Source: Bacillota bacterium
GTDB lineage: Bacteria > Bacillota > Dethiobacteria > DTU022 > UBA8154
DNA: 64,000 nucleotides
Direction: 5' to 3'
Assembly (NCBI GenBank): GCA_012728375.1
Contig: JAAYFF010000070.1
Span: 1-64,000, forward strand
Below, piece after piece: positions 49,251 through 61,374 of the stretch. Both the position numbers and the translations under genes were made by a program. Numbering within the stretch: the first letter of the stretch is position 1; every line of letters begins with the position of its first letter. The notes below the pieces were generated by a model that did not search any database, was not told where the DNA came from, and saw nothing but the letters and a program-made list of their open reading frames with translations.

Positions 49251-52088
49251 ATGATTGATTCTGAGAAGCTAAAGGCTGTTCTGGTGGAATACAAAAAAAA
49301 CTTTGTTTCCCAGCAATGGGACGATGAAAAATATAAATGGGAGGCTGTCAAGCATTTTCAAGAGCACTGGGATATTAATGCTTCGGACTTTTTAAATATG
49401 TTTATGCAAGCTACTAATAAAACATATAATTTACTTGCATCCATGAACAACTTCCCGAGGGGCATGATTAAAGCGTTTGCTGAAGCAGATGCGGAAGCTG
49501 TCAGAGCGATGTTTATCAATCTTTTTGATGAAAACAAGGACCTTGCCGAACGAGTCGAGAAATTCCAATCCGACGCTGAAGCGCTACGAACAAAGTACAA
49601 TGATGGCACATGGAAACAGCACTATCAGAATCTGAATTCCACCAGTACCTACCTCTGGCTCCGTTATCCGGATAAATATTATATTTATAAATATTCAGAG
49701 TGCCGTGCTGTTGCAAAAGAGCTGGGCAGTGATTTTGTTCCCAAAAAGGGTGCCTCATCTGTAAATCTGACGGGTGGCTTTAACTTGTACAATGAAATCT
49801 GTGAGCAGTTGGCAACGGATAAAGAACTTGTAAATTTGTTGCAGTCTGTGATGACGGAGAACTGTTATCCCGATACAAAGCTGAAAACACTGACTATTGA
49901 TGTTGGCTTCTATATTAGCCGAATTTATGCAAAGAAATCTGCTAAGGATGCTGGGGAGTGGTTTCCGGCGGATTATAGCCCGAATATTACGACTGAACAA
50001 TGGCTCTCCCTGCTTGCAGACGAGACGGTGTTCACAAAAACTAGTCTTGAAATCATGAAGCGCTTAAAAGACTTTGGTGGCATGGCCACCTGCACCCAGC
50101 TTTCCATTAAGTATGGTGAGACGAAAAACTTTTATAATGCTGGTTCATCCTCTCTTGCAAAGCGCGTCGCTGAGGCGACAGGCTGCCCGCTTATGACCAC
50201 GGATACCGAAAACTCAAAGTGGTGGCCCATTCTATATGTCGGGAGGTATGCGGATAAAAGTACAGCTGGCGTCTATATTTGGAAACTGCGTAATGAACTG
50301 AGCGAGGCATTGGAGCAGTTTGATCTCTCTGAGGTATCTTTGTATGCGGATAAAGCCCCTGTCATATGGAAAATTAGTCATGGCACCGATTTCATCTCCG
50401 ATGCAGAGGCAAAGATTTTTGAAGACAATCGTGTCATCGTAGTCCAGAAGGATATAAAAGCCACGGCAGCCTCCAAAATGAGCCAGGTGGATAGCTTTAT
50501 GCTTTCCATGAAAAAAGGCGACTATTTCTATCTTTGCTATGGAAACAGCATTCGGCTTCTTGGACAAATTAAAACGGATGATGTCGTACCGAATCCTGAA
50601 AAGGGAAATGGCTGGTATCAAAGGGAATACACAGTTATTGCCAAATCAAAGGATACTTCTCCTTATAAAAATACACAAAAACTGTGGACACCAAATGATA
50701 ACTCCACCTGCATTAAGGTGGGAGAGCCGGACAAGCCGTTATTCGAGGATTTAATTTTGAAACCATATTTTGATATGACGCTGGATTCTTTGTTAGGTAA
50801 TAGAGAAACGGAAATTCACGGCTATTGGTGGCTGAATGCCAATCCAAAAATTTGGAGCTTTTCCGATATTGGTATTGGTGAGATACAGAGCTATACCCTG
50901 TATAACGATAACGGAAATAAACGTCGCATATTCCAGAATTTCTTAGATGCACAAGCTGGTGACCTTATTATCGGATACGAATCCTTTCCGGTGAAACAGG
51001 TTGTTGCCATTGCAAGAGTAACCGAAAATGATGGCAAAAGTTTATATTTTGAAAAAGTAGAGGGGCTTGCTAGACCTATCGATTATGCAACATTGAAAAG
51101 CTGTCCAGAGCTGGAACAAATGGAATACTTCACCAATCCACAAGGCAGTCTCTTTAAGCTTACCAAGGGCGAATACGATTTTATTATGGACTTGGTCCGT
51201 GAAGAAAATCCAGTCGCTCCAAAGGAAACCATCGAAACATATTCCAAAGATAAGTTTTTGGAAGAAGTCTTTATGACGGGTGAACGCTTCGATACCCTTG
51301 TCTCCCTGCTAATTAACAAACAGAACCTGATTTTACAGGGCGCTCCGGGTGTAGGTAAGACCTTTGCCGCAAGACGCCTGGCCTATGCTGTAATGAAAGA
51401 GAAAGACGATAGCCGTATCGAATTCATCCAGTTCCACCAGAACTATTCCTACGAGGACTTCATTATGGGTTATAAGCCGCAGGGTGAAGGTTTTGATTTG
51501 CAATACGGCATTTTCTATCGTTTTTGCCAGAGAGCTGCGAACATGCCAGATAAACCATTTTTCTTTATCATCGATGAAATCAATCGCGGCAATATTAGTA
51601 AAATCTTCGGTGAGCTGCTTATGTTAATTGAAAAGGACTACCGCGGCAAAAAGGCTACACTGGCCTATAATGGGATGTCATTTACCGTTCCGAAAAACTT
51701 ATACATCATTGGCATGATGAATACCGCTGATCGCAGCCTCGCAATGATTGATTATGCGCTGCGCCGTCGTTTTAGTTTCTTTGAAATGGAACCGGGATTT
51801 AACTCCGATGGCTTCAAAGCGTATCAGGCAGGCTTCGATAATGATACATTCAATACCTTGATTGAGCGCATCAAAGAACTGAATAAAGAAATTGCTGCTG
51901 ATAGTTCACTTGGAAAGGGCTTCTGCATCGGCCATAGCTATTTCTGCGGACAGAAAGAATGCACCGATAATTGGATGATGGAGGTCGTTGAATATGATAT
52001 TCTTCCGATGCTGAGCGAGTACTGGTTTGATGAACCGACAAAGCTGCAGCGTTGGGGAAATATACTGCGTGGCGTTTTCAATGACTAA
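49251..52088 (+). CDS. mcrB: McrB-like GTPase/AAA restriction subunit with EVE-like domain
   Basis: 945 aa. The N-terminal about 500 residues are a long, unusual sensor region (MrcB-like and helical). Residues about 525-600 resemble an EVE/PUA base-reading domain (EIHGYWWLNANPKIWSF ... GDLIIGYESFPVKQVVAIARV). The AAA/GTPase motor has QGAPGVGKTFAARRLAY (about 694-710), FFIIDEINRGNISKIFGELL and IGMMNTADRSLA, the McrB NxxD region. With McrC it cleaves foreign DNA carrying modified bases. ATG 49251 with AAGGAGGTG. A 104-base gap separates it from brxL. Confidence 0.88.
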   Translation: MIDSEKLKAVLVEYKKNFVSQQWDDEKYKWEAVKHFQEHWDINASDFLNMFMQATNKTYNLLASMNNFPRGMIKAFAEADAEAVRAMFINLFDENKDLAERVEKFQSDAEALRTKYNDGTWKQHYQNLNSTSTYLWLRYPDKYYIYKYSECRAVAKELGSDFVPKKGASSVNLTGGFNLYNEICEQLATDKELVNLLQSVMTENCYPDTKLKTLTIDVGFYISRIYAKKSAKDAGEWFPADYSPNITTEQWLSLLADETVFTKTSLEIMKRLKDFGGMATCTQLSIKYGETKNFYNAGSSSLAKRVAEATGCPLMTTDTENSKWWPILYVGRYADKSTAGVYIWKLRNELSEALEQFDLSEVSLYADKAPVIWKISHGTDFISDAEAKIFEDNRVIVVQKDIKATAASKMSQVDSFMLSMKKGDYFYLCYGNSIRLLGQIKTDDVVPNPEKGNGWYQREYTVIAKSKDTSPYKNTQKLWTPNDNSTCIKVGEPDKPLFEDLILKPYFDMTLDSLLGNRETEIHGYWWLNANPKIWSFSDIGIGEIQSYTLYNDNGNKRRIFQNFLDAQAGDLIIGYESFPVKQVVAIARVTENDGKSLYFEKVEGLARPIDYATLKSCPELEQMEYFTNPQGSLFKLTKGEYDFIMDLVREENPVAPKETIETYSKDKFLEEVFMTGERFDTLVSLLINKQNLILQGAPGVGKTFAARRLAYAVMKEKDDSRIEFIQFHQNYSYEDFIMGYKPQGEGFDLQYGIFYRFCQRAANMPDKPFFFIIDEINRGNISKIFGELLMLIEKDYRGKKATLAYNGMSFTVPKNLYIIGMMNTADRSLAMIDYALRRRFSFFEMEPGFNSDGFKAYQAGFDNDTFNTLIERIKELNKEIAADSSLGKGFCIGHSYFCGQKECTDNWMMEVVEYDILPMLSEYWFDEPTKLQRWGNILRGVFND

Positions 52089-53145
52089 CGGCAAGGGAAT
52101 CCTCATCAAAAATATTTATTACATGCTTACCTATGCATTTCAGGTGCTGAGACAATCAAACTATGATGAAGTAGCGTCGGAAGAGTTTGAGAACATACAA
52201 GACCTGTTCGCCGCCATTCTTGCCAAAGGCATTGCGCAGCAACTGAAGCAGGGTCTGTACCTTGAATATGTTTCTGAATGCGCCAATCTTTCTGTGATGC
52301 GCGGAAAGATAGATATTCACGGGACAATCAATAACAAGCTTCAGCGAAACCTAAAGCTCTCCTGCGAATTTGATGAGTTGTCTGAAAACAATGTCTTTAA
52401 TCAGATATTGAAAACAACAGCCATCATTCTCCTTCGGCAGTCATCTGTAAATGTCAATCGTAGAACAGCGCTGAAAAAAGTAATGTTGTTTTTTGATGGT
52501 GTGGATATGATTGATCCTTCCTCCATCAAATGGCAGAGTTTGCGGTACCATAGAAACAATCAAAGTTATAAAATGTTGTTAAATATTTGCTATTTTATCC
52601 TTGAAGGTCTTTTGCTATCTACTGATCACGGCGAATACAAAATGGCCACATTCTTGGATGAGCAGCGCATGTCCCGCCTGTATGAAAAATTTGTGCTGGA
52701 GTATTACCGGTATCATCATCCACGCCTGCGAGCCGCAGCTTCGCAGGTAGCGTGGAACATAGACGATGGTGTCATTAAATTCCTGCCCATTATGCAAACG
52801 GATATTACACTCAGGGATAAAGAGAAAATTTTAATTATTGACACCAAATATTATGCCCATACCATGCAGGTTCAGGGTCAATACGATAGTCAGACGCTTC
52901 ACTCCAACAATCTGTATCAGATTTTTACTTACGTTAAAAATCAGGATGTTTATAACACCGGCAATGTAGCAGGTATGCTTTTATATGCAAAAACTGAGGA
53001 GACCATTACACCGGACTGCGACTTTCAGATGAGCGGCAACAAGATAAGTGTAAAGACGTTGGATTTAAATATTGCCTTTCCTGACATTGCCGCACAGTTG
53101 GACAGCATCGCTTCATCCTATTTTGGCGATACAAAAAGGAATTAG
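52081..53145 (+). CDS. mcrC: McrC-like nuclease subunit
   Basis: 354 aa from ATG 52081, overlapping the mcrB stop by 8 bases; the ORF-track start 52027 is inside mcrB. The start KGILIKNIYYMLTYAFQVL is typical of McrC. The nuclease core DITLRDKEKILIIDTKYYAH (about residue 245-265) carries the PD-(D/E)XK-type catalytic residues. It acts as the cutting subunit of the McrBC complex. A short 3' fragment of this gene is present in the collapsed copy at 20.3 kb. Confidence 0.87.
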   Translation: MTNGKGILIKNIYYMLTYAFQVLRQSNYDEVASEEFENIQDLFAAILAKGIAQQLKQGLYLEYVSECANLSVMRGKIDIHGTINNKLQRNLKLSCEFDELSENNVFNQILKTTAIILLRQSSVNVNRRTALKKVMLFFDGVDMIDPSSIKWQSLRYHRNNQSYKMLLNICYFILEGLLLSTDHGEYKMATFLDEQRMSRLYEKFVLEYYRYHHPRLRAAASQVAWNIDDGVIKFLPIMQTDITLRDKEKILIIDTKYYAHTMQVQGQYDSQTLHSNNLYQIFTYVKNQDVYNTGNVAGMLLYAKTEETITPDCDFQMSGNKISVKTLDLNIAFPDIAAQLDSIASSYFGDTKRN

Positions 53146-53265
53146 ATTTAACCGGGTACATCTGCATCCGAGAACTCATACCAGTTGAAATCTTACTCGT
53201 TTTTGATGGAAACTGGGATAAGGATGCTGAAAATAGGTCTTATTTTTGTCTGGGGGATGATTGTG

Positions 53266-54378
53266 GTGAAAGATATTGATAAATTCAGGGGGTGTCTCAT
53301 CGGAGGAGCAGCAGGGGATGCCCTGGGATATCCAGTGGAGTTTTTAGATGGCAAGAGCATTTTCCAAAAGTATGGAAAAAACGGAATTACTGCATATTCT
53401 CTGGTAAATGGCGTGGCTGAGATTTCTGATGACACGCAGATGACCCTCTTTACAGCTAATGGCCTTCTCTTAGGAACAACAAGGGGAATGACAAGAGGTG
53501 TTATGGGGAAATATTCAGATTACATTGCTTTATGCTATCAAGACTGGTATAGCACTCAATATAAAGACATCACAAAAGGCGGTTACTCATGGTTAGTCAA
53601 TATTCCGGAACTTCACGCGTCACGAGCGCCGGGAAATACTTGCCTTTCAGCCATAGAGCAAGGAGCAAACGGCACAATAGAAAAACCAATCAATCAGAGC
53701 AAAGGCTGCGGGGGAATTATGCGCGTCGCTCCCATTGGTTTATATTTTGAAGGGAAGCGGTACACACAAGAAGAGATTGATATGATTGGAGCTGAAGTCG
53801 CTGCCATTACACACGGTCATGAACTTGGGTATATTCCGGCGGCTGCGCTGGTACACATCATTCATATGGTGGCACATGATGCGAATATTACACTGCTTGC
53901 TGCAGTACAAGACTCTATGAAAACGATGGAAAAACTGTTTCCAAAAGCCAGGCATCTTCATGAGCTGTTAACTCTGATGCAAAAGTCTATTGATCTGTCA
54001 TCAGAAAACATGAACGATTTTGAGACAATCAAAGAGCTGGGGGAAGGATGGGTGGCAGAAGAAACGCTAGCGATAGCAATCTATTGTTCTTTGAAATACT
54101 GCAGCAGCTTTGATAAAGCCATCATCGCCGCGGTTAACCACGGCGGAGACAGCGACTCCACCGGAGCGGTTACCGGTAACATAATGGGAGCCTATCTTGG
54201 CTTGCGGGGCATACCTGACAAGTATATTGAACATCTGGAGCTTAAAGACATTATTATGGAAATAGCGGATGATCTATATAACGATTGCAAAATAACAGAA
54301 TATGGTTCCTACCGTGATGATGTGTGGGCGCATAAATACATTTATCATGATTATGGCAGGGAAAGTGGAAACTTTTAA
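53266..54378 (+). CDS. ADP-ribosylglycohydrolase (DraG-like)
   Basis: About 370 aa from GTG 53266 (GGGGGA eight bases upstream); ATG 53257 or the ORF-track start 53185 are other options. Metal-ligand motifs are DDTQMT near the N terminus and NHGGDSDSTGAVTGNIMGA near residue 290. RGCLIGGAAGDALGYPVEF is the family opening. It removes ADP-ribose from protein or nucleic acid. It follows mcrC and is duplicated as a 3' half in the collapsed copy, so it travels with the island and may be a defence accessory. No ADP-ribosyltransferase partner is visible nearby. Confidence 0.9.
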   Translation: MKDIDKFRGCLIGGAAGDALGYPVEFLDGKSIFQKYGKNGITAYSLVNGVAEISDDTQMTLFTANGLLLGTTRGMTRGVMGKYSDYIALCYQDWYSTQYKDITKGGYSWLVNIPELHASRAPGNTCLSAIEQGANGTIEKPINQSKGCGGIMRVAPIGLYFEGKRYTQEEIDMIGAEVAAITHGHELGYIPAAALVHIIHMVAHDANITLLAAVQDSMKTMEKLFPKARHLHELLTLMQKSIDLSSENMNDFETIKELGEGWVAEETLAIAIYCSLKYCSSFDKAIIAAVNHGGDSDSTGAVTGNIMGAYLGLRGIPDKYIEHLELKDIIMEIADDLYNDCKITEYGSYRDDVWAHKYIYHDYGRESGNF

Positions 54379-54392
54379 TTTCTGGCTGTGTA

Positions 54393-54429
54393 TTTTTACA
54401 GCAAAAATGAATTTTTTAGGCTGTAAAAA
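54393..54429. promoter_or_regulatory. 10-bp inverted repeat upstream of the ParD/ParE-like pair
   Basis: TTTTTACAGC (54393-54402) and GCTGTAAAAA (54420-54429) are perfectly complementary with 17 bases between. A TATTATGATAAAAT stretch just after could hold the -10 box. Likely an antitoxin operator, or a terminator for the ADP-ribosylglycohydrolase gene. Confidence 0.5.
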
Positions 54430-54486
54430 GCCATGTATTATGATAAAATAAAAATAATATATTAAGATCCGGGAGGAAATAACTTA

Positions 54487-54705
54487 ATGGGAATAATTGA
54501 TGATTTGGTTAATCAAATAGAAAAATTACCCCCATCTGACAGAGCACAAATTGTAGATGCAGTAATTAGAGATATGGCATCTCCTGATCCCCAAATTGAC
54601 AAGGTGTGGGCTAAAGAGGCCTCAATACGTTGGGGTGATTATAAACAAAAAAAAGTAAAGGCAATACCCTATGAGGAAGTATTGTCAAAGTATAAAAGAA
54701 CATGA
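54487..54705 (+). CDS. Antitoxin of ParD/RelB-like addiction module
   Basis: 72 aa. LVNQIEKLPPSDRAQIVDAV and the C-terminal VKAIPYEEVLSKYK match the small addiction-module component family (TIGR02574-type). GGGAGG lies 11 bases before ATG 54487. Overlaps the toxin gene by 4 bases (ATGA). Confidence 0.85.
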   Translation: MGIIDDLVNQIEKLPPSDRAQIVDAVIRDMASPDPQIDKVWAKEASIRWGDYKQKKVKAIPYEEVLSKYKRT

Positions 54706-54998
54706 AGGTTTCCTTTTTGCCTTTAGCTGAACAGGAGCTTGACGAAGCTTTTTTATGGTATGAGGAGCAAGTAGTTGGACTCGGGAATGGTTTTCTTGAT
54801 GAATTCAACCAATCCATTAAGCGTATTGTTGCTTTTCCAGCATTGTACGAACAAATAGACAATAATTTGAGACGGTGCTTGATGAATCGATTTCCTTATG
54901 GCATTATCTACGGGATTGACGGCGAACAAACTATTATCGTTGCTTTAGCTCATTTGAAAAGAAGACCTAATTATTGGTCTAATAGAAATATTGAGTAA
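54702..54998 (+). CDS. ParE/RelE-like toxin
   Basis: 98 aa with the RelE/ParE fold pattern: LAEQELDEAFLWYEEQ, RIVAFPALYEQI, RFPYGIIYGIDGEQTIIVALAHLKRRPNYW (quoted in part from two neighbouring strands). Translation is coupled to the antitoxin gene. Whether it targets ribosomes or gyrase cannot be told. The last gene before the IS66 insertion. Confidence 0.87.
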   Translation: MKVSFLPLAEQELDEAFLWYEEQVVGLGNGFLDEFNQSIKRIVAFPALYEQIDNNLRRCLMNRFPYGIIYGIDGEQTIIVALAHLKRRPNYWSNRNIE

Positions 54999-55516: not shown

Positions 55517-56141
55517 TTATACTTCCTCCCACGGATATTTTTCTTTTTTCTCGTCCTTTGGTTTCGGTGAAAATACCTTGCTCGGCAGGGCTGCACTGCC
55601 AGGCAGGAAGTTTTCAATTGCGGCTGCGTAACCCGGTTTTCCCAAGTTAGGAGCGTTGGTAAAAATCCATGTTAAGTATTCAAATGGATTAAGGCCGTTT
55701 TCTTTTGCAGTCACGATCAGGCTGTAGTAAACCGCGCTGGCTTTAGCACCGTTTGGTGTGTTAGCAAACAGCCAATTTTTTCGTCCAATCACAAATGGTT
55801 TAATGCTGCGCTCCGCACGGTTATTGGAAATTTCCAGGCGGCCATCCAGCAGGTATCTCTCAAGATATTTCCGCTGAGATAGCGCGTAATGTACTGCTTT
55901 GCCAAAAAGGGTATTGGGAAGCGCAGCAAGGCCTTCAATCCAGTTGTAAAATTCATCAATCACGGGCCTGGATAGCCGACTGCGTTCTTTAAGGCGATCA
56001 TCCGGACTCAGCAAGGCAAACTGTTTTTCCAAATGAAATAGTTTGTCGCAATAGGCAACTCCTTTTGCCGCGTTGGAATCCGGCTGCTTGTCCTTTGGCA
56101 GGGTTTTTAGCGCATCAAAGAATTTCCGACGCAGGTGTGCC
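55517..56141 (-). pseudogene. tnpC: IS66 transposase TnpC, C-terminal part (separated by RIT insertion)
   Basis: Continues the transposase after the insertion point: HLRRKFFDALKTLPKDKQ, then LEISNNRAERSIKPFVIGRK, the conserved DDE_Tnp_IS66 end with the catalytic Glu in NNRAERS. It stops at 55517 (PWEEV). The piece is in the correct frame with 59638-60614 once the 3496-bp insert is taken out. Confidence 0.93.
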
Positions 56142-56161
56142 TTATCTTACTTCTCGAATAA

Positions 56162-56195
56162 GGCACATTATCCAAGAAATATGATTATCCGAGAA
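56162..56195 (+). repeat. Left terminal inverted repeat of RIT element
   Basis: GGCACATTATCCAAGAAATA followed by TGATTATCCGAGAA; 33 of 34 bases match the complement of 59604-59637. Each end holds two direct copies of ATTATCC[A/G]AGAA, probably recombinase binding sites. Confidence 0.93.
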
Positions 56196-56252
56196 GAATA
56201 TCTGAAACCAGCATAAATACACTCTTTATCTGACATCTTCTCTGATAATAGC

Positions 56253-56292
56253 ACCTCCTTTAGAATGGAATTATAAACCATTCCAAGGAGGT
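56253..56292 (+). promoter_or_regulatory. Hairpin that can sequester the ribosome site of the first RIT gene
   Basis: ACCTCCTT (56253-56260) pairs with the ribosome site AAGGAGGT (56285-56292), and GAATGG (56263-56268) pairs with CCATTC (56278-56283) around a 9-base loop. The structure would hide the ribosome site of the recombinase at 56299 in any transcript that includes the whole hairpin. Confidence 0.7.
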
Positions 56293-56298
56293 ATTATT

Positions 56299-57534
56299 AT
56301 GAACCCAGAAGAAATCAGAAACCTATCTTTTGGAAACTTGCTTGAGGAATTGCTACACTATCTTGAGGACAAGTCTTATACTCAGTTGACGTTAGTGAAC
56401 TATCGCCGGATACTTAGGAAAATTGAACTGTTTATGATTGAGCATGGTATCGATGCTTATACTCCTGAAATAGGCATACAGTATTATAAAACCTATCTTG
56501 TCGAGAATAAACTATGCACTTCACGGCAAAAGGTTATATTTACGGTAATCCGAAGGCTCAATGACTTTTATTTAGGCATGGAATATCGGATTCAGCAGAA
56601 ACATGAAATAAATCTATTGCCCAGTAATTACGAGCATGTGTTGGGCATGTATGCCACGGAGTGTGCTGAAGCTGGCAACAAAGATATCACTATTAAGTCA
56701 AAGAAGCAATTCGTTCGTAATTTCCTAAGAGAATGCATTACATTTGGATGCCCGGACATTCAATCTTTGAACGCGTCTTATATCACAAGAGCATGCCTGA
56801 CGATCGAAAACAAGGATGGTTTGGCTGTGGTCAGGGCATTCCTGAAATTTTTGAGTATCAGGGGAACCACCGAGTCAGACTTTTCTACACTTGTTCCACG
56901 CTATGGGCGGCCTATTGATATACCGGCAACCTATAGTGAAAAAGAGATCCTCAGATTTGAAGCAGCCATCAATCGCACGAGCGATGTAGGCAAGAGGGAT
57001 TATGCAATGCTGCTCTTGGCGACAAGGCTTGGCATGAGATCCGGGGATATAGCAAAGCTGTCTCTTGATGAGCTAGATTTCGAGCATGAAGAGATATGCC
57101 TCATACAGCAAAAAAATGGAGAAATGTTACATCTCCCTATGCTGCCGGAAGTGAGTAAAGCGTTGACTGATTACATTAACAATGTACGTCCCAAAGTGGC
57201 AAGCAAGACGGTATTTCTGCGACATAGGGCACCCTATCAGGGAATCACCACATCTGTCCTACGTTTTGCAACATCAAAGTACTTTGGTTTGGCCAGTATT
57301 GATATGTCAGGAAAGAAGCACGGCCCCCATACATTTCGGTCATCATTGGCCAGTTCAATGGTTAATGATAATGTTCCATATGAAGCTGTCAGGACCATCC
57401 TGGGGCATTCTGATCCCGATGCAATAAAGCATTATGCAAAGCTTAACATAGAAAAGCTCCGTGAGTGTGCAATAGAAGTCCCGGAACCGGCGGGCTCATT
57501 TAAAAAATTTCTTGATGGATGTAAACAGTCATGA
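56299..57534 (+). CDS. RIT tyrosine recombinase 1
   Basis: 411-aa tyrosine recombinase. N-terminal SAM-like core-binding region (residues about 10-110) and catalytic domain with LATRLGMRSGDIAKLSL (first Arg), GPHTFRSSLASSM (HxxR) and TILGHSDPDAIKHYAKL (catalytic Tyr). AAGGAGG site seven bases before ATG 56299. Overlaps the next recombinase by 4 bases, the hallmark layout of RIT trios. Confidence 0.93.
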   Translation: MNPEEIRNLSFGNLLEELLHYLEDKSYTQLTLVNYRRILRKIELFMIEHGIDAYTPEIGIQYYKTYLVENKLCTSRQKVIFTVIRRLNDFYLGMEYRIQQKHEINLLPSNYEHVLGMYATECAEAGNKDITIKSKKQFVRNFLRECITFGCPDIQSLNASYITRACLTIENKDGLAVVRAFLKFLSIRGTTESDFSTLVPRYGRPIDIPATYSEKEILRFEAAINRTSDVGKRDYAMLLLATRLGMRSGDIAKLSLDELDFEHEEICLIQQKNGEMLHLPMLPEVSKALTDYINNVRPKVASKTVFLRHRAPYQGITTSVLRFATSKYFGLASIDMSGKKHGPHTFRSSLASSMVNDNVPYEAVRTILGHSDPDAIKHYAKLNIEKLRECAIEVPEPAGSFKKFLDGCKQS

Positions 57535-58514
57535 CCCAGTTCAAGAGTGTACTACAAGATGAGATTGCCGGGTTCTTGACACTTCGTAAAGCATCAAAAA
57601 GCAAAAGTGCCTATGACCACGACCGCCACACGCTTAAGTTATTCGACGAATACCTTTGCTCTATTAACTGCGACGACAAAAATCTTACAGAAGAGCAGGT
57701 GACCGGTTGGAACAGTACCCTTACAGGAAAGAGCAGTTCCATTGCCAACATGGTGATTGTTATCAGAATCTTTCTAGCACATCTTAAGGGTTATGGGGTT
57801 AATGCTTATATTCCGCCAATTCCAAAGGTCAGTGATGATTACATTCCGTATATATTCTCTGACGACGAGATGAAGCTAATATTTTCCATTGCAGATACCC
57901 TGCAGATGGGGAAACCGCGTAAGAATACTCTTATCCATGTGGAGTTTCCAATGATTCTGCGCCTCATGTGTGGATGCGGGCTTCGCATCGGTGAGACACT
58001 TTCATTAAAAATGAAAGATGTAGATCTTGATATCGGTGTGCTGACACTGAAATATACAAAGGGTGACAAGCAAAGGCTTGTTCCTATGCATCCCTCGTTG
58101 ACAAAAATCCTTAGGCAATACTGCATGGCTATGGGGATGATCGGATACCCGGAAGCATATCTTTTTCCAACTTCTGATTCGATGGAACCAGTGACAGTAC
58201 ATAATGCTCAGCATAAGTTCAATTTCATACTGGAACAAGGTAATATTTTTCTTTCTGGAAAAAAGAAACATCAGAGAGGTCCCTGCCTGCATTGCCTTAG
58301 GCATGCGTTTGTATTCAAATCTTTTGCCAATGCAGAGAAAGCAGGTCGTAGGGTTGATGACATTGTTCCATATCTTTCCATCTATCTGGGGCATGACAGT
58401 CTTAAAGAAACAGAAAAATACCTAAAATTCAGCAGTGAGATGTTTCCAGATGCAATGGAACTGTTTGATAGCTACACTGCACAGATCTTTCCGGAGGTGA
58501 ACTTCGATGAATAA
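57531..58514 (+). CDS. RIT tyrosine recombinase 2
   Basis: 327 aa. MCGCGLRIGETLSLKMKDVD (first Arg), CLHCLRHAFVFKSF (HxxRH) and IYLGHDSLKETEKYLKF (catalytic Tyr) are all present. ATG 57531 overlaps recombinase 1 by 4 bases. It overlaps recombinase 3 by 8 bases. All three catalytic sets appear intact, so the trio may be active. Confidence 0.93.
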   Translation: MTQFKSVLQDEIAGFLTLRKASKSKSAYDHDRHTLKLFDEYLCSINCDDKNLTEEQVTGWNSTLTGKSSSIANMVIVIRIFLAHLKGYGVNAYIPPIPKVSDDYIPYIFSDDEMKLIFSIADTLQMGKPRKNTLIHVEFPMILRLMCGCGLRIGETLSLKMKDVDLDIGVLTLKYTKGDKQRLVPMHPSLTKILRQYCMAMGMIGYPEAYLFPTSDSMEPVTVHNAQHKFNFILEQGNIFLSGKKKHQRGPCLHCLRHAFVFKSFANAEKAGRRVDDIVPYLSIYLGHDSLKETEKYLKFSSEMFPDAMELFDSYTAQIFPEVNFDE

Positions 58515-59532
58515 ACCTTCGAAATTTCTAGAGTTACTGAACAGTTATTTAACAAATTACATGCCCTGCTCAATCGGGGCAAGCCCTAATACGGTTACTT
58601 CATATAAATATGCTTTCCGGTTACTGTTGGAGTTCATGTATTCCACTAAAGGAATCCCTGCCGATGAGATAGCCTTTGAGCAGTTAGACTTTGGCACCCT
58701 AACAGAATTCCTTGACTGGATAGAGAAAGACCGGCGTTGTAGCGCATCAACGAAGAATCAGAGACTGTCAGCAATCATTTCTTTTTCTGAGTATGCCCAA
58801 AACCGGGATTTTTCTGCTGCATCCGTATTTCGAAGCGGCGTGATTAAAATCCCCATGAAAAAAGTCCAGAAAAAGCAACGGGCGGTGTTATCAGTGCAGG
58901 AAGTTTCAATTCTTCTTCGTTTACCTAACGACAGTAAGGATATCGGCCTCAGGGATAAGGTACTGCTTAGCTTAATGTATGCAAGTGGGGCAAGGGCACA
59001 GGAAATCTGCAACCTGACGGTAGGAAGCATACAGTTCAATTTGAAAGGAGCCACCCTGAACATAAAAGGGAAAGGGGGGAAATCAAGGCGTATTGGCATT
59101 CCGGACAATTGTGCTAAGATGCTACAGAAATACATATCTCACCGGCGTCTGAGTTCAAAGCCTGACAAGCATATTTTTTCAAGTCAAACCCATGAACAGA
59201 TGACTGTTTCCTGCGTTGAAGGTATCTTCAAGAAATACGTACGACAGGCTAAGGGAGAGAATCCAATTTTATTCAAGGAAAACAGTTATCCGCCGCATTC
59301 CATGAGGCACTCAACTGCAAGCCATATGTTGGAGGCGGGTGTTCCAATTGTAGTCATAAAAAATTTCCTTGGGCATGCATCACTCCAAACAACGCAGATT
59401 TATGCGGAATTGTCACAGAACACAGTAGACAAGCACTTGAAAGAATGGAATGAGAAATGGTTCGCCCCTGATTCTGAGGCAATAAAAGTATCCAAAAAAG
59501 AAAATGAAATGCCAGATTTCTTAAATATTTAG
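58507..59532 (+). CDS. RIT tyrosine recombinase 3
   Basis: 341 aa. YASGARAQEICNLTV (first Arg), PPHSMRHSTASHMLEAGV (HxxRH) and FLGHASLQTTQIYAELSQ (catalytic Tyr). N-terminal SAM-like domain residues about 5-100. GGAGGTGA lies upstream within recombinase 2. It resembles XerC/D more closely than the other two. Confidence 0.93.
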   Translation: MNKPSKFLELLNSYLTNYMPCSIGASPNTVTSYKYAFRLLLEFMYSTKGIPADEIAFEQLDFGTLTEFLDWIEKDRRCSASTKNQRLSAIISFSEYAQNRDFSAASVFRSGVIKIPMKKVQKKQRAVLSVQEVSILLRLPNDSKDIGLRDKVLLSLMYASGARAQEICNLTVGSIQFNLKGATLNIKGKGGKSRRIGIPDNCAKMLQKYISHRRLSSKPDKHIFSSQTHEQMTVSCVEGIFKKYVRQAKGENPILFKENSYPPHSMRHSTASHMLEAGVPIVVIKNFLGHASLQTTQIYAELSQNTVDKHLKEWNEKWFAPDSEAIKVSKKENEMPDFLNI

Positions 59533-59603
59533 TCAAAACGTAGACTTAGATTATCCGAGAAAAAGAAAAGAATCTCCTATACTTATGCGGTTTTTAGTGT
59601 TTT

Positions 59604-59637
59604 TTCTCGGATAATCATATTTCTCGGATAATGTGCC
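59604..59637 (-). repeat. Right terminal inverted repeat of RIT element
   Basis: TTCTCGGATAATCATATTTC followed by TCGGATAATGTGCC, complement of the left end with one mismatch. An additional GATTATCCGAGAA copy, in the opposite orientation, lies inside at 59549-59561. Confidence 0.93.
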
Positions 59638-60614
59638 CAGCAGCCCACAATAATTATGTTCTCGGGTAGTTTGTGATAGCCGCTGTATCCATCCGCGTGG
59701 AGGTATCCTTTAAAGTTCTGCAAAAAGCTTTCCGGATGTGTATGTTTTCTATCGGGTTGATAGTCAAAGAGTACTAGCTGGTGTTTTGCCTCACCGCTGG
59801 TTCGGTACAGCCACATGTAACTTTTTGATTGTGCCTTCTTGCCCGGTTCTTTCAGTACCTGCAGTACTGTTTCGTCTCCGTGCAGCACATCGTGCCGGCA
59901 TAATCGTCGCTTCATTTCTTCATATATCGGTTCCAGCCAGTTTTCGGAAGCCTTGATCAGCCAGTTTGACATGGTCTGTCTTGAGAGCAGGATCCCATTT
60001 TGCTTCCATTCCTGCTCCTGGCGGTATAGTGGCGATGCCATCATGAATTTCTGTGAGGCGATATGTGCAATTGTTTCGGGTGAGGCAAAGCCGCCTTTGA
60101 TGACGGGTTCAGGCATGTCCGCCTTGACAATGGGAACGCGATCGGAGGTTTTTTCACAGTTCCGGCATGAATAAACGTGCCGCACATGGCGTACTATTAT
60201 TGCTTTTGCGGGAATGATTTTGAGTTCCTCGCGGGTTTCCTTGCCCATCGTATGCAGTTTGCTACCGCAATCCGGACAGACTTGCTCTTTTGCCGGCAGT
60301 TCGTGTTCGATTATCTCAACAGGGAGGTCCTCCGGAAGCTTGTCCGTTGTGAGGCGTGTCCGTTTGCGATAATGTGCCTTTACTTCGGTAAGCTTAGGCT
60401 CCGGTACGGATAGGTCGGCATTTGATTCGGCTTCGTTGAATATGGAGATCTGGGAGGCGTTTGTCTGCTCGCTTGATACCCCAAATTGCTTATGCCTGGA
60501 AAGGCGAATCTGTGACATAAACCATTTGATTTGCTGCTCTAGTTCAGCAATTTTTCGGTCTTTTTCTTTGATTATGCCAAGCAGGTTTTCTACCGAAATT
60601 TCTTGCGTTTCCAT
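59638..60614 (-). pseudogene. tnpC: IS66 transposase TnpC, N-terminal part (disrupted by RIT insertion)
   Basis: About 325 residues of TnpC: a leucine-zipper-like start (IKEKDRKIAELEQQIKWFM), a zinc-finger region CPDCGSKLHTMG ... YSCRNCEKTSD, and the DDE region HGDETVLQVLKEPGK and HADGYSGYHKLPENIIIVGC, ending WA at the insertion. The ORF track continues to 59583 into RIT sequence. The intact protein would be 533 aa. Confidence 0.92.
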
Positions 60615-60670: not shown

Positions 60671-61021
60671 TTAAGAAATATGCCGTTCTAAAACCTCTTT
60701 CCTCTTGAGCTTTTTTTCCAGTCTCGCCCCATCAATGAGGCAGGATAATTCTTCGGCATTGAGTACCATTGTGGCAGCGTCTCCTTCTGCCGGCCAGATG
60801 AAATGCCCGCGTTCCAGCCGTTTGAAGTATAGCCAGAATCCGTCACCGTCCCATTCGAGGATTTTAAGTCTATCCCTTCTTCTGTTGCAGAATACAAACA
60901 GCGCATCGGAAAATGGATCGAGGGAAAAGCTGCCTTGAACCAGCGTCATCAATCCATTGATAGATTTCCTCATGTCCGTGAATCCACAGCATATATATAC
61001 AGGTTTGTCACTCCATCTCAT
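60671..61021 (-). CDS. tnpB: IS66 accessory protein TnpB
   Basis: 116 aa with VYICCGFTDMRKSINGLM and FCNRRRDRLKILEWDGDGFW, the IS66 Orf2 signature. Required for IS66 movement. Its start abuts or overlaps the tnpA stop at 61021. Intact. Confidence 0.94.
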   Translation of the reverse strand: MRWSDKPVYICCGFTDMRKSINGLMTLVQGSFSLDPFSDALFVFCNRRRDRLKILEWDGDGFWLYFKRLERGHFIWPAEGDAATMVLNAEELSCLIDGARLEKKLKRKEVLERHIS

Positions 61022-61374
61022 CAGAGCGACCCCAGCACACGGCAGACTTTTTTCAGCAGTTCAGGATCTGTCCCGGAATTCACGCTGATATGAAAGCCGC
61101 TGATTTCTATGTCCAATGTTGAGTTCATTTGTTGGGCCTGTCCCGGTGCAAGCTGTATCCAACCGCTTGGTACGGGGTCCACAGAGTTTTCCTGTATTGC
61201 AAGCTCTGTGCATGCCGCATTCCTTAGTTTCCTTTGCCAGTAGAAGTATTGGCTTTTGCTAATTCCTGTTGCCTGGCAGAATTCCTTTATGTTTTGCCCG
61301 CTGTGCTGTCGCGCCTGTATTACTTTAGCCCATTTTGATAGCCGGTACTGTGCTGTGACCTTTTTTGTATCCAT
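61021..61374 (-). CDS. tnpA: IS66 accessory protein TnpA
   Basis: 117 aa with the helix-turn-helix region QARQHSGQNIKEFCQATGIS followed by KSQYFYWQRKLRN, typical of IS66 Orf1. Overlaps tnpB by one base. Intact; about 120 bases separate it from the right IS end. Confidence 0.92.
   Translation of the reverse strand: MDTKKVTAQYRLSKWAKVIQARQHSGQNIKEFCQATGISKSQYFYWQRKLRNAACTELAIQENSVDPVPSGWIQLAPGQAQQMNSTLDIEISGFHISVNSGTDPELLKKVCRVLGSL

Follow-up and report, generated by a model that had tools for sequence, protein, structure and literature searches.

The 64,000-bp stretch of DNA analysed here (the window) carries an IS66 transposon whose tnpC gene is interrupted by a RIT (recombinase-in-trio) element (Table 1). 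Three tyrosine recombinase genes, ritA, ritB and ritC, all of the Phage_integrase family, are adjacent to one another with overlaps of 4 bp and 8 bp, and the flanking DNA encodes the two halves of TnpC beside TnpB and TnpA. Joining position 56141 to 59638 (i.e. removal of 56142-59637) restores a continuous 533-aa TnpC reading (IIVGCWAHLRRKFFDAL), in which the motif GCWAHLRRKF, split between ...IIVGCWA and HLRRKF..., is regained in frame. The RIT so removed is 3496 bp in length and has inverted ends, as expected of RITs (~3.5 kb, inverted ends): 56162-56195 and the reverse complement of 59604-59637 match at 33/34 positions, the inverted repeat can be followed over 58 nt at 84%, and the hexamer TGTGCC is found at 56136-56141 and again at 59632-59637. 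The nesting, the in-frame rejoining of GCWA and HLRRKF, the 34-bp inverted ends with 33 matches and the TGTGCC on both sides had been put forward in a preliminary description of this DNA, and all are confirmed.

Table 1. Features of the RIT element and of the interrupted IS66 in the window
Feature	Coordinates	Strand	Basis or remark
ritA, 411-aa tyrosine recombinase	56299..57534	+	Pfam Phage_integrase 3.8e-24; best match RitA of pHG1
ritB, 327-aa tyrosine recombinase	57531..58514	+	best match RitB of pHG1; 4-bp ATGA overlap with ritA
ritC, 341-aa tyrosine recombinase	58507..59532	+	best matches RitC of S. medicae and pHG1; 8-bp overlap with ritB
Outer hexamer TGTGCC, M side	56136..56141	.	target or donor spacer; behaviour read from relatives
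Module M, TTATCTTACTTCTCGAATAA	56142..56161	.	two putative back-to-back half-sites
Inner hexamer GGCACA, inverse of TGTGCC	56162..56167	.	sequence
Putative dif-like core site TTCTCGAATAA-GGCACA-TTATCCAAGAA (11-6-11)	56151..56178	.	sequence; inferred architecture
Left 34-bp inverted repeat, two 11-bp arms 17 bp apart	56162..56195	.	repeat alignment
Right 34-bp inverted repeat, closing with TGTGCC (59632-59637)	59604..59637	.	repeat alignment
IS66 tnpC 5' part, up to GCWA	59638..60614	-	NF033517 E = 2.2e-75; join
IS66 tnpC 3' part, from AHLRRKF	55517..56141	-	NF033517 E = 2.8e-38; join
IS66 tnpB	60671..61021	-	profile match
IS66 tnpA	61021..61374	-	profile match

The three Rit proteins find their best matches among the RIT proteins of pHG1 and Sinorhizobium medicae in the pairs A-A, B-B and C-C, and the recombinases of the window match XerC/D profiles. 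In a predicted structure of RitA (mean pLDDT 86, pTM 0.54; prediction run without plasmid-derived rows), helical bundles at residues 11-91 and 109-188 are followed by a catalytic domain from residue 214. The model places two four-helix bundles ahead of the catalytic domain, in agreement with the two sequential core-binding domains reported for RitA, RitC being reported to have an extra C-terminal helix (PMC8138268). Only three genes are present between the RIT ends, not the four-gene module of SEs and GInts, to which a catalytically inactive recombinase-like protein and a small fourth protein belong; there is no TnpC-type gene between them, as the TnpA, TnpB, TnpC set of Tn554 would include, and the proteins match Rit families. 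RITs have been described from Cupriavidus metallidurans CH34 and pHG1 (PMC2864759, PMC3414803), and Cupriavidus has provided an earlier example of a RIT within IS66 (PMC2864759). Like those elements, the RIT of the window has three overlapping tyrosine recombinase genes in the order A-B-C, ~3.5 kb and inverted ends; the two also share targets in IS66 tnp and other mobile genes, and the pHG1 element has the same end anatomy.

The left end of the element reads hexamer-M-inverse hexamer-IRL and the right end IRR-hexamer, where M is a 20-bp module. At the ritA end, 26 bp are found outside the repeat, in the order TGTGCC-TTATCTTACTTCTCGAATAA-GGCACA-IRL; the outer edge of the left 34-bp repeat is at 56162, and the repeat opens with GGCACA. 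Since the right TGTGCC is inside its repeat and the GGCACA at 56162 is its inverse, there are three hexamer copies, not two, and because all three are equal, donor and target hexamers are indistinguishable in the window. The boundary of the RIT is ambiguous within 6 bp (56136-59631 or 56142-59637). The view that boundaries and target were already fixed was thus half right: the 20-bp M and the inner hexamer (56142-56167) had been overlooked, the left repeat starting 20 bp inside, and with them the part of TGTGCC as a recombination spacer instead of a plain flanking repeat.

What the window looked like before insertion is deduced from the restored reading frame and from intact relatives of the IS66 rather than from an identical empty site. 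A search for an uninterrupted copy had been suggested as a check; the class yielded only relatives at 44-58% and no intact copy of the same IS66, and the nearest of these (58%, 50% and 44%) do have the predicted join, reading GCWAHARRKF, GCWAHARRQF and CWAHVRRKF, respectively. No second RIT copy was found in the genome of the window. Contigs C34, C38, C59-C61 and C70 of that genome (G000) carry more fragments of related IS66 copies, several of them at contig ends, so a complete genome might show an intact copy.

About 40 RIT relatives of the window's element were compared, and 22 relatives were collected by RitC search. In those RitC relatives whose two flanks are assembled and free of rearrangement, this 20-bp sequence or one like it adjoins one repeat and is bracketed by hexamers, at the ritA end in some and at the ritC end in others. 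Distant RITs from Bacillota and alphaproteobacterial plasmids (31-37% RitB identity) also carry M, as does pHG1 of Cupriavidus, a member of the founding RIT set (CGCGGT-TCATGCCGCTAGCGGCATGA-ACCGCG-TTATGCC). M is exactly 20 bp in 26/26 compiled sequences of Bacillota and Proteobacteria, pHG1 included, and is near-palindromic, with a mean dyad of 7.9/10 in 26 RIT ends against 2.5 by chance. On these comparisons M is a general feature of RITs. Two other origins for M were rejected: it is not a free-standing scar, because in 399 genomes exact copies of the window's M were found at RIT ends only and the near-matches were due to chance, and it is not a random left-over, because a near-palindromic module of 20 bp recurs in relatives.

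M was not seen in element-only contigs (L018, L022, L023) or in rearranged copies. On the S. medicae ml42 plasmid NZ_CP140903.1, M is present at both ends of one RIT copy and missing from another (L116, L125); both have same-side target halves on their two flanks, and they look like the reciprocal products of an inversion between two RIT copies on one plasmid, which would account for the apparent lack of M. Two further copies apparently devoid of M (L026, L074) have the same inverted same-side flanks. L067 was considered as a truncated RIT and rejected as such, another transposon being found in one arm: at L067 7581-11082, a transposase/ATPase transposon apparently sits in a terminal arm of an IS66-nested RIT, giving three-level nesting. 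In Heliophilum fasciatum (L032 5885-6304), a 420-bp internally deleted RIT retains both ends, M and the hexamers intact with only a short ritC remnant; this MITE-like derivative might be moved in trans. A candidate second, different RIT (L013 263-3406), with all hexamers GATGAA, is located <300 bp upstream of an IS66-nested one on the same contig.

Eleven RIT copies, the window included, are inserted at the same IS66 motif, the halves reading GCWA and AHxRR or close variants. Other interrupted targets, whose flanks were read by eye or from the annotation of the records, are IS66 tnpB (TDMRK), IS21 istB (GKTH/GKSH), IS21 istA (EKGNVENKVGY), group II intron reverse transcriptase (QGGPLSP), IS110 (YVKxYVK), and among plasmid genes strawberry-notch genes and an ArdC-like gene. 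The preliminary description held that few RIT insertions are as clear as that of the window; many were found among the relatives, some with truly empty sites. Judged from these flanks, RITs insert into conserved motifs of mobile-element and plasmid genes. M adjoins the AHxRR half of IS66 in 11/11 copies whichever way the element points, and it is on a fixed target side also in the IS110 and strawberry-notch insertions; the target orients the site, and the element itself is free to point either way. The strawberry-notch helicase gene of conjugative plasmids is repeatedly hit at one motif in alphaproteobacterial plasmids (L092-L098).

The origin of the hexamers was read from relatives in which the copies differ. 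Two elements of S. medicae ml2 (L088 and L089) show 0/3799 differences and have M at opposite ends, and they share the junction IRR-GTGAAG-M-CTTTAC-IRL (or its M-side equivalent), as would be expected of one circle opened at one or the other of two sites. Ten near-identical RIT copies are found in S. medicae ml42, and empty sites in other strains carry a single hexamer with 0-1 differences in the 200-bp flanks compared with the occupied sites. These near-identical copies at several sites, together with the empty sites, show that these relatives have moved in the past. The hexamer of empty site L110 (TTTGAC) equals the far hexamer of L111 and L117, that of L132 equals the far hexamer of L113, and that of L131 (TTTAAC) equals the M-side hexamer of L118, both 200-bp flanks being identical; in this small number of empty sites, three comparisons are thus far-side and one is M-side. 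The L089 join as predicted is found in L110 without a mismatch over its 506 bases. Since an empty site has one outer hexamer of the occupied site, the second outer hexamer and that between M and the repeat were brought by the element. The comparison of occupied and empty sites shows that the hexamers are donor or target spacers, the target hexamer being found at one outer position and a donor hexamer at the other, that a third hexamer travels between M and the repeat, and that no target duplication is made.

The TGTGCC on both flanks of the window's element could be taken for a 6-bp target duplication made by plain cut-and-paste transposition, the left 20 bp being incidental. This reading is very improbable, as the same 20-bp module returns in relatives at either end, the outer hexamers are unequal in L032, L025, L093-L095 and most S. 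medicae copies, and the empty sites carry one hexamer that is equal to only one of the outer hexamers; the last two observations reject the duplication itself. The matched hexamers of the window are not due to chance, because matches in the IS66 group exceed those of permutation: M-side and inner hexamers match in 8/11 copies, the window included, against 1.9 expected (p = 3.5e-5), with p = 1.3e-4 for M-side and far and p = 7e-4 for inner and far hexamers. The hexamer triplets for these statistics were compiled by hand, and some of the insertions may not be independent. M-side and inner hexamers are the same in 17/23 Bacillota-type copies but in only 4/19 alphaproteobacterial copies.

We propose that a complete RIT was probably integrated by tyrosine recombination at GCWA|H of IS66 tnpC from a circle with two dif-like core sites, either of which can be used. 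The mobile unit would consist of IRL-ritABC-IRR plus the 20-bp M, i.e. two back-to-back half-sites, with 6-bp spacers in between. The circular intermediate would have the junction IRR-a-M-b-IRL (a and b standing for hexamers), containing core site A (IRR-a-M) and core site B (M-b-IRL), each of the dif-like 11-6-11 form. Site A or site B would recombine with the target X-H-Y, use of site A leaving M at the ritA end, as in the window, and use of site B leaving it at the ritC end; H, the hexamer of the target, would stay at one outer position, a donor hexamer would be left at the other, and the third would remain between M and the repeat. We infer from the matched hexamers and the orientation of M that the hexamers would have been equalised, as in the window, by the element later inverting in place between its inverted ends: recombination of inverted core sites would generate heteroduplex spacers, replication would turn these into exact inverse copies, and the element would flip relative to M. 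Both orientations of M relative to ritABC are found in the IS66 group, as inversion would produce, and one only in all S. medicae copies. Inversion of the element was preferred to inversion of M itself, which would need pairing over a distance of 20 bp and was judged physically implausible. The low M-side/inner agreement in alphaproteobacterial RITs is counted against this explanation. No circle junction and no RIT relatives were found in the viral contigs searched.

A strand-biased copy-out/copy-in process as proposed for SEs, in which only one strand is exchanged and M is an accessory arm, would suit the ten copies in one strain and the 6-bp fingerprint and footprint shown by SEs (PMC10214605), but is unlikely. 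On this reading one fixed border would always receive the target hexamer and the opposite border a donor hexamer. L111, L117 and L113 fit, each with the target hexamer on the far side and a donor hexamer on the M side, but L118 is reversed while both its 200-bp flanks equal the empty site, which rejects a strict far-side rule and is better fitted by heteroduplex spacers resolved by replication. Less likely still is recombination of a folded single strand, in which IRR/IRL and a/b pair and M loops out, giving a hairpin core like that of integron attC or CTX phage attP. The h-M-h' and the repeats do form one long inverted repeat, M is near-palindromic, and a = b' in the majority of Bacillota-type copies, but the M-side/inner mismatch in 15/19 alphaproteobacterial copies (e.g. 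GTGAAG/CTTTAC in L089) would leave the spacers unpaired, and no relaxase or replication gene was found within the element by ORF and domain search.

RITs share features with several known systems. RITs resemble SEs and GInts (PMC10214605, PMC5385486) in having several recombinase genes, a 6-bp spacer fingerprint or footprint and target specificity; SEs and GInts have four conserved proteins, one of them recombinase-like and lacking the catalytic motif, whereas RITs have three apparently catalytic recombinases and the extra module M, and either of their outer positions may hold the target hexamer. Tn554 likewise combines tyrosine recombinases, site preference and a 6-bp donor-derived footprint with no target duplication (PMC10214605). 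It differs from RITs in its TnpA/B/C gene set. We know of no 20-bp module in Tn554. Tn916 leaves a donor-derived spacer of ~6 bp at one outer junction with heteroduplex resolution; it has one core site per circle junction, uses Int and Xis, and inserts into AT-rich targets, not protein-coding motifs. RITs share the donor-derived spacer and, in the proposed model, heteroduplex resolution with Tn916 and differ by two predicted core sites per junction and by coding-motif targets. Xer/dif sites have an 11-6-11 layout with an inner ATAA/TTAT dyad. RITs resemble them in this layout and dyad, as well as in the XerC/D profile matches, and differ in encoding their own recombinase trio and in having two putative pairs of half-sites in tandem.

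Although RITs have been known since 2009, their ends, target rule and movement had stayed unresolved (PMC3414803, PMC10214605). The ends were reported to vary in sequence and to combine a 28-9 bp inverted repeat and a palindrome overlapping it, which "do not fit well" with the sites known (PMC2864759, PMC3414803); these features were noted without explanation, and the ends were called puzzling (PMC3414803). RIT movement has not been reproduced in the laboratory, and target specificity and movement are listed as not tested (PMC10214605). Neither the 20-bp module nor the two-site junction nor the inheritance of the hexamers is mentioned in the RIT literature compared here, of which Ricker et al. 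2013 (Plasmid 70:226) is not part. From the rules for module and hexamers follow exact boundaries, a target rule, a way to recognise RITs as well as empty sites, and one particular junction sequence to search for. We lean slightly towards regarding RITs as a separate class of tyrosine-recombinase transposon, the circle of which would carry two tandem dif-like cores around a portable 20-bp double half-site; site choice, spacer exchange and in-place inversion would allow landing in either orientation in the most conserved motifs of mobile elements. In that class, three recombinases might be needed because two adjacent core sites and a target have to be served. The hexamers would be short sequence tags kept from the landing sites in earlier hosts, giving a testable account of RIT movement.

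Directly beside the IS66/RIT, at 49251-54998 of the window, Pfam matches identify a McrB-like AAA protein with an EVE domain, McrC, an ADP-ribosylglycohydrolase and a ParE-type protein, which possibly form a defence cluster.
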